DNA of 64,000 nucleotides from Acephala macrosclerotiorum (taxonomy: Eukaryota; Ascomycota; Leotiomycetes; Helotiales; Mollisiaceae), in contig MU119352.1 of assembly GCA_014904845.1 (NCBI GenBank), positions 62,001 to 126,000 of the forward strand. The letters are read 5' to 3'. The notes beneath the pieces were generated by a model, which was not told the DNA's origin, made no database searches, and worked only from the letters and a program-made list of their open reading frames with translations. The position numbers and the translations under genes are program-made. Positions 41,692-62,378 of this stretch are shown here, one piece after another. Within the stretch, counting starts at the first letter, position 1; each line of letters begins with the position of its first letter.

Positions 41692-43419
41692 CTAAGATTT
41701 CTTATCCCCCTTCTGTCTCTCCATGACCTTCAATACATCAGCCGCACTGTTCACATCCCCTTTCCTCTTCTTCCCACCCCTTTTTCTCTCTTTCTTCCCT
41801 CCTTTCCCACCATCAACGTCGTCGTCACCCCCACCACCACCACCCCAAACACTCAACTTAACCTTCTTCTCCTCAAAATCCTCTTCATCCTCAAACCTAC
41901 TACTTCCAAATCCCATATCCATATCTTGCGCATCCCGATCATCCCTCTGCAGCATTTTCTTCCTCCTAGCTTCTTTCGCTGCTTCTTCTTCCGATTCGGC
42001 GGCTTTGGCGATGGGGTTCAAAGAGGAGGCTTTCTTGAAAACGGCCATAAATACGGGATCTGATAATGCAGCGGGTTTGGAGGCGTCCGACTCGGATGAG
42101 GGGGTGGTGGAGGAGGTGCCGAAGTAGTTGCGTGATGTTGTTGAGGTGAGGGGTTTGGGGCGGGGTGGTGGTGCCATGAGTCCTGGTGCTGGTTCTGAGG
42201 GTTCGGGGATTTCGCCTTCTTCTCCTTCGTTTTCCACGCCTCCCTTGACTTCTTCGTCGGAGTCATCTTCTTCCAGGCCAGCTAAGGGATCGTAGTCGTC
42301 TCCTACATCGTCGAATATGTTGATATCCTCTTCTTCGACTACTTTGGGTATGTCGGGTACTTCCATGCCCAATGGCTTGGCGTCTTTGTCCGGCATTAGG
42401 AGTCCATGGCCCTTTTCTTCTGGTTCTTTCTCAACGACTTGGATCTTCCTGACCTTGCGCTTCTCATTACCGTCCTCATCCACTGTAATCAGTACTTCCC
42501 TCCCCTTACTATCCCTCTCAATCCTACTCTCCACCCTCCTCTCTCCCACTTTCTTAAACCTCGATCCCAAACTCGGCTGCGCAGCCTCCTTCGCCGCCTG
42601 CCTTGCCGCCTTCATCTCCGCCAATATTTGATCCCTATTTCTCTTCTTCCCCGTCAGCGCAGGCGGAGCCATCTCCCCTTTCTTCTTAACCTTCTCCTTA
42701 ACCACAACCTCAACCTCCCTCCCTTCCAACTCCTCAAATTCTTCATCAAAATCCTCCGCTTCCTCTTCCTCCTCTTCCTGCTCCGGACTTGCAGCTTTGG
42801 GCTTAGGCTCCAACACATCACCAATCCCTACCTCCCCCGCCTTAACCCTCTTCAATAGCCCCCAATCCAGACCCTTGACCAACCCCGCTCTCTCGGCTCC
42901 GATATCATCACCTAATATCTCCTCTCGTAGTTTAACGAAAGTCTCTTCGTCAATCTGTTGTAATTTCATCATCTCTTCTAACGCCTTGACTCTCTTCACT
43001 TTATCGTTCTCCTCTTCGCCATCTTCGCCTATTCGCTGTTTTGCACGATCGACGTAGCCTTGTGGGAGTTTGGCACCCTTTGGTGCTGCACTGCTGCGGA
43101 ATTTCTTCTGGGTGGTAGTGGAAGAGGAGGAGCGCTCGGCGAGTTGGCGGGTGAAGTCGGAGTGTGGGTTTGAACCTGCTACTGAACGTCTACGAATGGG
43201 TTAGCTGTGAGTATTGGTCTAGATATGGACTCTGGAAAGGGAGAATAGGAAGGGCAAGATGTACGGTGTCATTGGAATAGAGCTCCTCATCCTCGAGCCC
43301 AGCGCGGAGGGAGTTGCGCCCACGCCATTGCGACTGCTGGTTGCCCCTGGTGGCGAAGAGGCATTTGCTTGTCGCGCTGGCGTATCGAGGACTAATTTCC
43401 GAAATTGAGAATTATTCAT
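41692..43419 (-). CDS. RED/IK-type splicing factor (RED N-terminal domain protein)
   Basis: 550 residues from exons 43419-43265 and 43189-41692 (75-bp intron). The N-terminal region has MNNSQFRKLVLDTP, then after the junction SNPHSDFTRQLAER and KGAKLPQGYVDRAKQRIGEDGE, as in RED/IK proteins that act with SMU1 in spliceosome activation (family knowledge). The middle is charged and includes MAPPALTGKKRNRDQILAEMKAAR and LGSRFKKVG, followed by NIFDDVGDDYDPLA, RNYFGTS and a Gly/Lys-rich tail with NSAADVLKVMERQKGDKK. The metazoan RE/RD repeats are absent. RED/IK is favoured, but the C-terminal half also resembles SR-like low-complexity proteins, so the name is given without a symbol. Confidence 0.8.
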
Positions 43420-43693
43420 GGCTGTCTCGTTGTCGAGCTTGCGATTTCGAAGTGAAGTGAAGTTGGAGAAGCGGCATGAAGTATATTCAGCCTCGCGAGA
43501 AATTTTAGCGCCTTGCGTTCGCGATCGGCAGCACTTACTCCGAATCAGCAGAAGCAAGTTAATCCGGGTGTGATAGGTAAGGAACGTCGAAGTCCCGGTC
43601 CGACTTTGATCCGGTGGCTGCTATTCAGTCAGCATAAGCGAGACTAATGGTTATAGTTTTAAATAAGCAAATTTCTGCAACGATTGCCTCACC

Positions 43694-43818
43694 GCCCGGC
43701 TGGTAAGTCATCTATTCATCATCCCATTCGAGTTTGAAACTAACACGATTCAGGCACAATTGGTTAGCGCGTGGGCCTTTTAAGCCCAAGGTTGAGAGTT
43801 CGAGCCTCTCGTCGGGCG
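43694..43818 (+). tRNA. tRNA-Lys(UUU) with a 51-nt interruption in the D-arm
   Basis: The 3' part 43754-43818 folds as D-loop AATTGGTTA, anticodon stem TGGGC/GCCCA around loop CTTTTAA (anticodon TTT), T-stem GAGAG/CTCTC with TTCGAGC, and 3' acceptor strand GTCGGGC plus discriminator G. The matching 5' acceptor strand GCCCGGC is not adjacent but 51 nt upstream (43694-43700), followed by TG. Removing 43703-43753 gives exactly 74 nt with a paired acceptor stem (one G-T). A T-run at ~43835-43843 can terminate Pol III. The D-stem keeps an A-C mismatch. The interruption begins GTAAGT, has CTAAC ten bases before its end, and ends CAG. Eukaryotic nuclear tRNA introns normally sit after position 37, so this place is abnormal. 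Confidence 0.75.
43703..43753 (+). other. Intron-like insertion inside the tRNA-Lys gene
   Basis: 51 nt with GTAAGT at the 5' end, CTAAC as branch site and CAG at the 3' end, matching the spliceosomal introns of neighbouring genes in motif and size. It lies between tRNA positions 9 and 10. It splits the A box; the genomic version reads AGGCACAATTGG in place of TGGCACAATTGG. Confidence 0.65.
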
Positions 43819-43859
43819 CAATCGTTTCATGAATTTTTTTTTATATTTTTTTTTTTTAA

Positions 43860-54830: not shown

Positions 54831-57800
54831 TTAAATAATTAAATTAAATTAGATTAACTACTCTTAATCTAAATTTAATCAAAGGAAATATAGTATTACT
54901 CTAATTCTAATCTAATCTAATCAAGTTAATCTAGATTATAATTAATTAACATGATTAACACGTGACTATATTCGGCTTTCGTTCAAAGAGGCGAATGAGG
55001 CTTTGAATTAAAGTTCGGCCAATCGGAAATTACGAAACTAAAACAGAACTAGTATCGCACACGCTATAATCGAACTATAAGCGAAATACCGATCTTCGAA
55101 CCAATTTTCTCTCTCGAATTTTCTATATTTTACTATTTTATTATAAATCAAATAAATTATATAAAATTAAAAAATAATTATAAATCAATAAAAATCTAAA
55201 AATACTATTAAAATAAAAAAGATTTTTATATAATCAAATAAATATTTTCGATTTTTTTTTTAAAATCAATATAATTAATTTTTTTTATAAATTAATTATT
55301 CAAATTACAAAAAAAAATTTTATTATAAATTTGTTTTAAATTATTCGAAATATTTTTTTTTATTTTAAAAAAAACTAATATTAATTAAAATTATAAAAAT
55401 TTTAATATTAAACTTTTTAAAAATTAAATTTTTATATTCAAATATAAATTATTTAAAAAAAATTTTAATTTTATTAAAAAATTTTTCTCGAATTCAAATA
55501 ATATTCAAAATTGTACAATTAAATATTTTTATAAAAATTATAAATAAATAATTTCTATTTTAAAAAATATTTAATTTATTATTCTACGAATAATATAATA
55601 AAATTATATGTTTTTTTTTAAAAAATTTTATAAATAAATAATTTTAAAAATAATATTAATTACGTATTTTTTAATATATAAAAAGTTTTTATTTATTATA
55701 AATTAATTAATAATTTTTTTTATTTTTATTTTAATTGATTAATTAATTAATTCACGAATTACGAATTACTTCGAATAAATTTTATTAAAAATTGTTTATA
55801 TACGATTTATATATTTTGTTTTTTATTATTATTAAAAATTGAAAATTAAAAATCAATTAATAAAAAGATTTTATTTTAATTATATTATTCGAAATAAAAT
55901 AATTTAATTACGAGATTATAAAATTGTAAAAAAATATTAATTTATAAAAATTACGTATTAAATTACTTAAAATAATTAATATTAAAACGAATATAAAAAA
56001 AAAAAAAAAAACTCGTACGATTATTTATAGTAATTAGTTTTATTTCTAATAAAAATTAAAATATAAAAAAAAATAAAATTATAATATTAAAAAATAAAAT
56101 TGTTTTATTGTTTTATATTTTAATTTTAATTTTTTTAAAAATCGCAATTCGTAAATTATTTATAATCGTTTTTAAATTAAAATAATAAAATTAAAATAAA
56201 TTTTAAATTTTAAAAAATAATATAAAAAAAATTGAAATAAAAAGCTTTAATTGAAAAAAATCGATTAAAAAAATATTTATTTAAAAAATATATTTTATTA
56301 AAACGAATAAACGAATAAAATTTCGAATAAAAATTAAAATAAAATTTTTTTTATAAAAAAATAATTATCGTAAATATAATAATAAAAAAATAAAAAAAAA
56401 TTCAAATTTTTAAAAATATAAAAACGCGATATAAATTAAATATATATTTTATATTAATTAAAAATAAATAAAATAATATATATAAATATCGATATTTTTC
56501 AAATTAAATTTTATTATATTTTAATTATATTATAATTATATTATATATATATTAAATATATATTTAAATAAATTTAAAAAAAATTATATTTTTCGTCGAT
56601 TTAATACTACGAAAACGAGAAAAACAAATATTAATAATTATATATATTAATTTATTTTTAATATTTTTTTTTTAAAAATATCGTAAGATTTTCAATTAAT
56701 AAAAATTTTTTTTTTTAAAAAATCTATATAAATTTAATATATACAAAGTATAAATCGAATATTATATTACGAAAATATATTATTTTAATTAAATCGAAAA
56801 TCGAAAAAAAAAAAAAAATTCGAATTATATTAAATAAATTAAATATATATACAATATAAATATACGTTTAACGATTTATTTTATATTTTTTTAACGATAA
56901 AAAAATATTAATTAAACGTTAAATATTTAATATATATTCGATATAGTATATATATATATATTATACAATAAAATTAAATATTAAACGTAATAATAAAATC
57001 AAAATTATTTTAATTAAAAAAATTAATAAAAAATATTTCGATATATATTAAATATATACGTAATACGTTTACAAATAATAATATAAAAATTAAAACGATT
57101 ATTAAAAAACTAATTTTATTATAATATAAATTAAATATATATAATTTTAATATTTAAATTCTAATAAATAACAAATATTATATTAATCGTTTATAATAAT
57201 AAAACGTTTAATAATATTAATCGTATTAAAATTAAAAATTATATATAAATTAAATATATATAAAAACGTAAAATAAAAAATAAACAAACGAATATTAATA
57301 TAATTATTACGAATATAATAAAATTTTTATATATAATTAAATAAAAATAAAAATAAAACAAATAAAAAATTAAATAATAAAAATTTAATTATATATTTAA
57401 TTAATATTTATATTAATATTACAATTAATAAATATATTAAATATATATTTATTATAAATCGAAAACTTATATTAATATACTAATATTAATAGTATTAAAA
57501 CGTATATTAAAATTAAAAACAATTAAAAAAAAAATTTAATATATATTTAGTATTATTTTAATTTTAATACGAATTAGTATTTTAAATCGATATAATATTA
57601 AATAAAACTAAAAAAAATTAATATTAATTTAATATATATTTGATGTATATTTACGACGGATTTTTATATTAATCGTAGTAGCGCGAAACGATTCGATATA
57701 ATTCGAATTATTGTTCGAAATAAATTTTAATTTAAATTATAAATATATATTAAATATATACAAAGTATATATATATTGTAATAATATTCGTACGTAAATA

Positions 57801-58629: not shown

Positions 58630-58844
58630 CGGGTCAATTTAAGTAAGAATTTTGATGGAAAGAAGGGATGGTTTCCTCTACGGAGCAATACTGCTTTCAA
58701 GTAAGTGACAGTACTTAGCTAGCTATTTTCGCTAAAGTCATCTGATCGAACTAACTTTTTACAGCGAGTCCCGACCTTGACCTTGAACTAAGCCCGAAAA
58801 GGCGATCGTAAACTTAGCTAGAATTGGTAACTCAGTCCTCGAAT

Positions 58845-61139: not shown

Positions 61140-62378
61140 GAACTATAAAATCAACTCTTTTAATTCTAAATTTTATAATTAATTCACTATTTAATTTTTT
61201 GCTTTAAAATTAAAACTATATATCAATAAATAGTAACTAAATTTCGTACTACAATAACATTTTCAATTTTACAAGTCAATTGTTCTATATAATACTTGAA
61301 ATCACGTGAATTTACTCGATTTTACAATTTCTACAACTCTTTATATAAATTCTCTTTATTTTTCGATATATAAAGTAATTTCTTTAATTTTTTTTTTATT
61401 TATCGTTAAACTTTTTCAATTGAATTCGCGAATTTTATATTGTAGTTTAAAAAGTCTAATTTTCTTTTTATATACTTTTATTTCGTTTTTTATAAAAATA
61501 TACTTCGAATTTAAAATATCAAATAAAAAGAAAACTACAAACTTAAAAATCTATTAAAAATATACTTTAAAGCAAATATTTTTGCGCTTTAAAAACTTTT
61601 TTATAAATACTAATTTTAATTTATAGTTTCAATTAATAACTTTTCAAATTATTACTATAACTTTTTCTAATCAATAAACAAATTGTATACAATCAAAGCA
61701 CTTTTTCTTATTTACTCTTTATATTACTCAAATTTTACTATTTTTCTCAGTCTCAAATATAGTTTTATCTAACTATATAATCTTCTACTAATTCTCTCTT
61801 TATTTACTATCATTTCTATAAACAATATAATCTAATATTTCTCACTATTTATACTCCTTAGTAAATACTAATCTCTTCTTAGTTTATTATCGTAATATAT
61901 AAAATCGAAAATATACAATGCAACGACAATAGTTTGCGCGACGCAATTCTCGACGAATAATTCGAACAAAAACTGAAAAATATAATAAAATTTTAAGACT
62001 AACGAAAATCATTCTACAAAAAAACTAATCTTTTGCGATTATACGAATACATAAACGAATGTCTTTTACAAATATAATATATAGTTTCGAGCGTTTCTTT
62101 CCTCGTATTCGACGATTGTATTCTTACTTGAAAATGCGTCTTATTAATCTCCTAGACATAAAAATCTCTTTTTGAATCTCTCGCTAAAATTTTCTCTGTT
62201 TTTGCAAACTGCGAACAATTGCGCGAACAAAAATAAGCCATTTTTTTTGGTTTTTCTAAAGAAGAGAACTGAGTATCACAAGTGTTTCCATTTTAAATTG
62301 CAGAGAAAAAGGATTGTTAATTGATAAGATATTAAAATTTAAAAAGAAAGGACTAGAAATGAGAACGCGTCGACGCGT

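Follow-up and report, generated by a model that had tools for sequence, protein, structure and literature searches.

Apparent spliceosomal introns in a tRNA-Lys(UUU) gene and other tRNA genes of the helotialean fungus Acephala macrosclerotiorum

Analysis of a 64,000-nucleotide stretch of Acephala macrosclerotiorum DNA (hereafter the window) revealed, at positions 43694-43818, a gene for tRNA-Lys(UUU) that is interrupted after nucleotide 9 by 51 nt bearing the signals of an mRNA intron. We consider it very likely that this locus is a working tRNA gene with a U2-type intron, and that it represents a class of functional Pol III tRNA genes that contain spliceosomal introns. In the 69.7-Mb, 778-contig assembly, at least 18 such tRNA genes were found (the window gene and 17 others), which serve 11 amino acids and carry 25 inserts; tRNA genes with mRNA-type introns are a genome-wide pattern in this fungus and not a single oddity. 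Because these tRNA genes appear to be broken by introns of the mRNA type, the cell probably makes some of its tRNAs by way of the mRNA splicing machinery. Comparison at the level of sequence establishes that the inserts are precise and bear splice signals, that their sites are empty in paralogues and in a relative, that compensatory changes span them, and that the genes have promoter-like elements in common; from these features we infer Pol III transcription, spliceosomal removal of the inserts and function of the products. In the proposed pathway, Pol III would most likely initiate at an upstream TATA-like element and end at a T-run, the spliceosome would excise positions 43703-43753 using the donor GTAAGT, a branch point in CTAAC and the acceptor CAG, and the spliced tRNA-Lys(UUU) would then fold and mature as usual. 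The window gene appears to be part of a set that comprises at least 18 tRNA genes, one U6 copy and one Pol III-like RNA family.

The first exon of the window gene (GCCCGGCTG, 43694..43702, + strand) consists of the 5′ acceptor strand GCCCGGC and positions 8-9 (TG), and the second (43754..43818, + strand) extends from the D arm to the discriminator G73, a stretch that Rfam RF00005 matches and that ARAGORN recognizes once the gene is spliced. The 51-nt spliceosomal-type intron (GTAAGTCATCTATTCATCATCCCATTCGAGTTTGAAACTAACACGATTCAG, 43703..43753, + strand) separates tRNA positions 9 and 10, and its motifs can be read directly: the 5′ splice site GTAAGT (43703-43708, + strand) and a branch-point motif, CTAAC, ahead of the 3′ splice site CAG (43751-43753, + strand). 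The GT donor, the CTRAY-type branch motif near an AG acceptor and the usual fungal length are those of U2-type introns, and the location of the insert at position 9, not after 37, is not that of a canonical nuclear tRNA intron. An earlier note on this DNA had proposed that the acceptor strands pair once 43703-43753 are removed, yielding a 74-nt product with normal anticodon and T arms, and that the removed piece contains GTAAGT, CTAAC and CAG. The coordinates proved exact, the three motifs are present, and the same anatomy recurs in 24 further tRNA inserts. In the spliced form, the acceptor strand of exon 1 makes 7/7 pairs with 43811-43817, the T stem has 5/5 pairs, the T loop is TTCGAGC, the discriminator is G, and the anticodon TTT resides in the loop CTTTTAA, which lacks a canonical intron. 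The product thereby has the 7-bp acceptor, 5-bp T stem, TTCRA loop and anticodon loop of a tRNA cloverleaf, with a single D-stem mismatch (A12-C23 in the ARAGORN drawing).

The interruption envisaged in that note is borne out by both programs. With introns allowed, ARAGORN reports no tRNA for the unspliced gene and a tRNA-Lys(ttt) once the insert is removed, a warning that tRNA scans miss interrupted genes. In the unspliced window, the match to Rfam RF00005 begins no earlier than model position 9, at 43753 (39 bits; gathering threshold 29), and the similarity to tRNA therefore begins at the 3′ edge of the insert. Predicted RNA folding was uninformative (z of -1.17 unspliced and -1.15 spliced), and the insert used as a DNA query had no second copy in the genome.

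ARAGORN was rejected as a test of the insert boundaries because it is too permissive, passing 279 of 5110 trial deletions of the window gene as tRNAs; a strict stem score and comparison with intronless relatives were added beside it. By the stricter score, six of 4500 deletions tied for best. Three of these six give an identical spliced sequence, corresponding to three possible placements of the insert; one of these three, and no other of the six, takes out a piece with GT at its start and AG at its end (GTAAGT..CAG). As no intronless paralogue or orthologue of the window gene is available, the edges of its own insert rest on this anatomy. The combination GTAAGT-CTAAC-YAG occurs twice in the window (in the insert and at 58701) against 0.19 expected, and two occurrences were reached in 1 of 100 window shuffles. 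Elsewhere in the window, an encoded nucleoside hydrolase shares 86% identity with a protein of Phialocephala subalpina and 79-80% with its counterparts in Mollisia scopiformis and a Mollisiaceae sp., which places the fungus close to that helotialean group. An AT-rich region of the window with dense TATA-like motifs (55160-57800) is possibly a mutated (RIP-like) repeat.

In a whole-genome search for the tRNA family, 63 of 2302 candidates were scored and 37 tRNA matches were listed, from which we examined 35 stretches with 36 tRNA matches besides the window gene. GT-AG inserts outside the anticodon loop are present in a Trp gene (L072) and a Glu(UUC) gene (L073) and absent from the other 34 matches, one of which is a diverged Thr-like copy (C276:28356-28425). 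Further genes came from pattern searches with the anticodon arm, D arm, T arm and upstream element. In 80 stretches examined, these searches yielded at least 15 more interrupted genes among the matches listed: four for Lys(CUU), located on four contigs and containing two inserts each (L092-L095), two for Met (L081 and L108), two for Thr (L082, AGU; L100, UGU), and one each for Arg CCU (L115), Leu CAG (L130), Gly UCC (L154), Phe (L160), Ala AGC (L174), Glu UUC (L175) and Cys (L193). The inserts occur in the D, T, variable and acceptor regions, and 13 of the 18 genes additionally carry an ordinary anticodon-loop intron. This sample of genes is neither complete nor unbiased; 60 of the 100 listed upstream-element places were examined, a minority of which are tRNA genes, and the CTTTTAA..TTCRA pattern had 814 matches, those among the 100 listed being mostly AT-rich. 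Several examined loci, L138, L164, L170, L177 and L198 among them, have a tRNA-like look. A scan of a viral contig collection gave no match.

The 25 inserts range in length from 47 to 59 nt, with a mean of 52.6 nt. They were recognized by eye as GT...AG, so the counts of GT and AG (25/25) are partly built in; at the other donor positions, +3 is A in 23 and G in 2, +5 is G in 25/25, and +6 is T in 16, C in 8 and A in 1. The final three bases are CAG in 15, TAG in 7 and AAG in 3. A CTAAY motif is found within 20 nt of the 3′ end in 21/25 inserts, against 2.5 expected from shuffles, and the gap between motif and end is 8-15 nt; the four inserts with no such motif near the end are those of L130 and L193 and the second inserts of L095 and L174. 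Numbered along the spliced tRNA, the insertions follow nucleotides 9, 13 (two genes), 15 (two), 16, 22, 23, 25 (two), 46, 50 (two), 51 (two), 55 (five), 56 and 64 (four).

Candidate mRNA introns whose removal joins ORFs were drawn from 315,614 bases (the window and 3-kb loci, partly overlapping). The resulting 18 candidates have a median length of 52 nt and motifs like those of the tRNA inserts, in agreement with the proposed likeness of the window insert to mRNA introns, although the filter itself required those motifs. Before removal of overlaps, the ORF-joining test returned 19 GT..AG candidates, compared with 2, 4, 12 and 1 for control dinucleotide pairs. A loose-filter version of the list was dropped as noisy, and T-runs inside inserts, tried as a discriminator, fail to separate tRNA inserts from mRNA introns. 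A bulge-helix-bulge with a 4-bp central helix was found in 0/25 inserts (mean 1.52 pairs; chance expectation about 1.5), a weak test because the 12 canonical tRNA introns of this genome that were scored do no better (0/12, mean 1.33).

Eleven inserts reside in genes that have an intronless relative, namely those of L072, L082 and L081 and both inserts of each Lys(CUU) gene. For six of these inserts the comparison allows one possible placement and for five it allows two, and all 11 can be read as GT...AG. The spliced Trp gene (L072) is identical, letter for letter, to the intronless L054, as is the spliced Thr(AGU) gene (L082) to the intronless L041. Between the spliced Met gene (L081) and the intronless L055, the sole differences are G6->T and C66->A, and these two changes pair with each other across the insert. 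Removal of the inserts leaves an acceptor stem with 7/7 pairs in 17 of the 18 genes, the exception being Gly (L154) with 5/7. ARAGORN assigns the expected isotype to 18/18 spliced forms, which is weak support given that the program is permissive and that the ends of canonical introns were adjusted in 10 genes until the tRNA read well; the GT-AG inserts were left unmoved during this adjustment. Judged by these comparisons, the spliced products look selected as tRNAs.

The Lys(CUU) genes share two insert sites and have exons that are 0.99 identical. Their insert cores, with the signals removed, are 0.58 and 0.61 identical (shuffled, 0.58 and 0.56), and yet all three splice signals (donor, branch motif and acceptor) persist in 7/8 inserts, with CTCAT replacing CTAAY in the eighth. 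The distant flanks are likewise near the shuffled level, and identity is 0.74 in the 50 nt upstream and 0.93 in the 21 nt downstream. Recent duplication was considered as the source of this pattern and is unsupported, given that the distant flanks and insert cores approximate the shuffled level. A 30-base Lys(CUU) pattern searched against a prokaryote collection matched two contigs, L201 (NYXK01000182.1) and L202 (NYXK01000116.1). Their record is titled Deltaproteobacteria and carries fungal-looking genes, and it is probably a contaminated bin. A protein on L202 has 95% identity to a Leptodophora protein, and its 100% match carries no name. Judged by such gene content, at least one of the two contigs is fungal. 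In both, the Lys(CUU) gene has an ordinary anticodon-loop intron, an uninterrupted T arm and two empty insert sites, and thus both inserts are absent from a helotialean relative. These genes differ from the spliced L093-L095 at 2/73 nucleotides, through which the T-stem pair C50-G64 of the present genome becomes U50-A64, again a compensatory change; L092 has one T-loop difference beyond the L093-L095 pattern. The sequence upstream of L201 and L202 matches the upstream element weakly (11 and 12 of 16). A 3′ trailer, CAATTCCCGA, is kept in L092-L095 and in L201 and L202 despite diverged distant flanks, and might pair with CTCGGG of the acceptor.

Upstream of the window gene, a TATA-like element (TATAGTTTTAAATAAG, 43652..43667, + strand) starts 42 nt before the first base of the tRNA and agrees with TATAGATTTAAATAAG at 15/16 positions. 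An element scoring at least 12/16 precedes 31/33 insert-free and 17/18 interrupted tRNA genes, compared with about 2% of 2000 random 100-nt segments taken from the window; its distance is 31-64 nt in the insert-free genes, 30-53 nt in 17/18 interrupted genes, and 78 in L115. Two U6 genes are likewise preceded by it. Sites matching TATANAWTTRARTAAG with up to one mismatch number 1722 in the genome, versus 1485 for the reversed pattern, and the 100 listed are all exact; this sequence is a candidate Pol III upstream element of the fungus. A T-run at 43834..43842 (+ strand), the first run of five Ts, lies 15 nt past the 3′ end of the tRNA and is a probable Pol III terminator. Such a run is found within 100 nt (at 3-86 nt) in 31/33 insert-free genes, and the window gene thus combines an upstream element and a T-run as do the other tRNA genes of the genome. 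Before splicing, the A box of the window gene lies 51 nt further downstream, at nt 59, and still scores 11/12 because the final AG of the insert replaces positions 8-9; the B box scores 9/11. Inserts divide the B box of the four Lys(CUU) genes and of the Arg(CCU) gene, where the best scores are 8-9/11 unspliced and 11/11 spliced. A displaced A box or a split B box should weaken ordinary TFIIIC recruitment, and we infer that genes whose B box is split depend on the upstream element.

Inserts of this type are also present in other genes that appear to be Pol III-transcribed. The U6 copy L200 (C261, U6 match 61667-61765) contains at 1567-1618 a 52-nt GTAAGT..AACTAAT..CAG insert, following ..CTAAGGAT, that is absent from the U6 gene L199; two weaker U6 matches lie on C379 and C8. 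A Pol III-like RNA family (L127, L145, L190 and L192, on C4, C13, C56 and C63) has the form GGCACC..AACGC-insert-..GGTGCCTG..CCTGGGTTCAAATCCCTTGG..CGCCA, and in 4/4 copies found a 48-53 nt GTAAGN..CTAAC..YAG insert occupies the same place. Another Pol III-like family behind TATAGATTTAAATAAG, whose members are not tRNAs, has a core like GGTTCAGGTCA and T-run ends (L119, L125, L126, L135, L144, L151, L153, L155, L157, L179, L188, L195 and L196 and, by eye, L131, L149 and L156). A second family behind TATAGATTTAAATAAG (L132, L133, L152 and L158) has the blocks CCTGAAA.. and TTCTTCGGAAG in common.

The supply of lysine tRNA bears directly on whether the interrupted genes function. In this possibly incomplete assembly, searches with patterns and with DNA queries found the Lys(UUU) gene of the window and no other. 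A 35-place Lys pattern with up to two mismatches matched 17 places, the window gene alone matching with none, and ARAGORN found no tRNA at the remaining CTTTTAA places. A pattern for the 5′ half matched 27 places, of which the window gene and the four Lys(CUU) genes had zero mismatches; none of the one-mismatch places with a Lys anticodon was tRNA-like. The spliced Lys(UUU) used as a DNA query of the genome returned only itself, and an unsplit Lys(CUU) T arm had no match with up to three mismatches in the whole assembly. Were all five Lys genes dead, the assembly would be left with no lysine tRNA gene visible to these searches. For P. subalpina, a passage of the genome report (PMC5148876) gives a size of 69.69 Mb and counts 91 tRNA genes, “coding for all amino acids”, and ordinary annotation thus apparently found Lys genes in that species.

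We consider it very unlikely that the interrupted genes are pseudogenes and that intact genes elsewhere supply the tRNAs. Intronless paralogues do exist for Trp, Thr(AGU) and Met, the Gly gene has two acceptor mismatches, the Thr-like copy at C276:28356-28425 is diverged, and short insertions in the D or T arms of eukaryotic tRNA genes are, according to a review (PMC4090602), mostly supposed to mark pseudogenes. Against this stand the failure of pattern and DNA searches to find an intact Lys gene of either anticodon, the compensatory pair changes that span inserts, the contrast in the Lys(CUU) genes between 99% identical exons with signals kept in 7/8 inserts and insert cores at about the shuffled level, and the reading of 11/11 inserts in the set with relatives as GT...AG. 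The earlier note had left a dead copy as an alternative should tRNA-seq yield no 74-nt spliced read and several intact tRNA-Lys(TTT) genes exist elsewhere; that the searches found neither a second Lys(UUU) gene nor an unsplit Lys(CUU) T arm leans towards function. Removal of the inserts by the tRNA splicing endonuclease, as non-canonical introns in Cyanidioschyzon and nucleomorphs would suggest, seems most improbable. Sites in the D and T arms and several introns per gene are on record there, again in part of that review (PMC4090602), and the absence of a bulge-helix-bulge helix (0/25) is a weak argument against it, as the 12 canonical introns fail the same test. The inserts also have a uniform length, GTNNG donors and a CTAAY 8-15 nt from their ends, none of which is known to play a role for this enzyme.

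Splicing by the spliceosome is as a rule coupled to Pol II, and the tRNA might accordingly be excised from a spliced Pol II transcript of which the insert is an ordinary intron. The adjoining ORF at 41692-43200 is on the opposite strand, which leaves room for a possible divergent Pol II promoter. The upstream element and T-runs, however, are common to insert-free and interrupted tRNA genes, the element is also found at two U6 genes, and no ORF of at least 150 aa overlaps 43652-43842 on either strand; we regard this origin of the tRNA as highly improbable. The earlier note had offered two arrangements: in one, a Pol III transcript is processed by the spliceosome, and in the other, the tRNA derives from a Pol II RNA. 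The first gains from the 18 genes and 25 inserts, the empty sites, the upstream element and the T-run, with the part of the spliceosome itself deduced from the splice signals; the second loses ground, given that the signals are Pol III-like and that the genome-wide evidence fits the Pol III alternative. The reading we prefer is thus that functional tRNA genes transcribed by Pol III contain spliceosomal introns. We also think it probable, with rather less assurance, that in this helotialean lineage the spliceosome took over essential tRNA synthesis, with its introns spreading through tRNA genes and other Pol III-like genes, all detected Lys genes, of either anticodon, apparently becoming dependent on it, and the upstream element replacing the split B box. 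As to the origin of the inserts, reverse splicing is possible. An introner origin is unsupported for the two inserts searched, each of which matched itself alone, and these two (of 25) therefore show no introner family.

By convention, nuclear tRNA introns are assigned to the tRNA endonuclease and mRNA introns to the spliceosome, a division that this genome appears to break on a large scale. No report of spliceosomal introns in tRNA genes was among the matches listed in a search of open-access literature, preprints and subscription papers excluded. The fungus would offer a natural system for the study of Pol III transcripts processed by the spliceosome. Its hosts are very small and under strong constraint, and intron-bearing and intronless paralogues occur together, so that intron gain could be dated and its mechanism (e.g., reverse splicing) approached. 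In such a genome, a failure of splicing would directly hit translation.

Introns are also known in the SRP RNA of basidiomycetes, and group I introns in tRNAs. The canonical nuclear tRNA introns, which are removed by the Sen endonuclease and follow position 37, are likewise found in tRNA genes and coexist with the inserts in 13/18 of the genes described here; they sit elsewhere in the tRNA, differ from the inserts in length and motifs, and are cut by an enzyme other than the one presumed here. The non-canonical tRNA introns of Cyanidioschyzon merolae, nucleomorphs and Crenarchaeota, as described in part of a review (PMC4090602), resemble the inserts in that a gene may have several and that they lie in the D arm, the T arm and other non-canonical places. 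The review links those of archaea and C. merolae to BHB-type motifs and to the endonuclease, and it describes how the very short ones of nucleomorphs are removed as unknown; the inserts reported here differ from those of C. merolae and archaea in having U2-type splice signals and no BHB fold, the latter by a weak test. With the introners and introner-like elements of Pezizomycotina, as outlined in a portion of PMC9860276, they have in common a burst of intron gain in fungi, and they differ in that the two inserts searched have no other genomic match and in that the hosts are tRNA genes. A close precedent is the U6 snRNA gene of Schizosaccharomyces pombe, which has mRNA-type introns that are removed by splicing (Tani and Ohshima 1989, 1991, as cited in a passage of PMC10484740). 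As there, short mRNA-type introns interrupt a Pol III transcript, and the U6 copy L200 is of the same kind. In S. pombe the host is an RNA of the spliceosome itself, a location explained in that passage by reverse splicing next to the catalytic nucleotides, whereas the hosts in this fungus are tRNAs, and the inserts are spread over many genes and sites.
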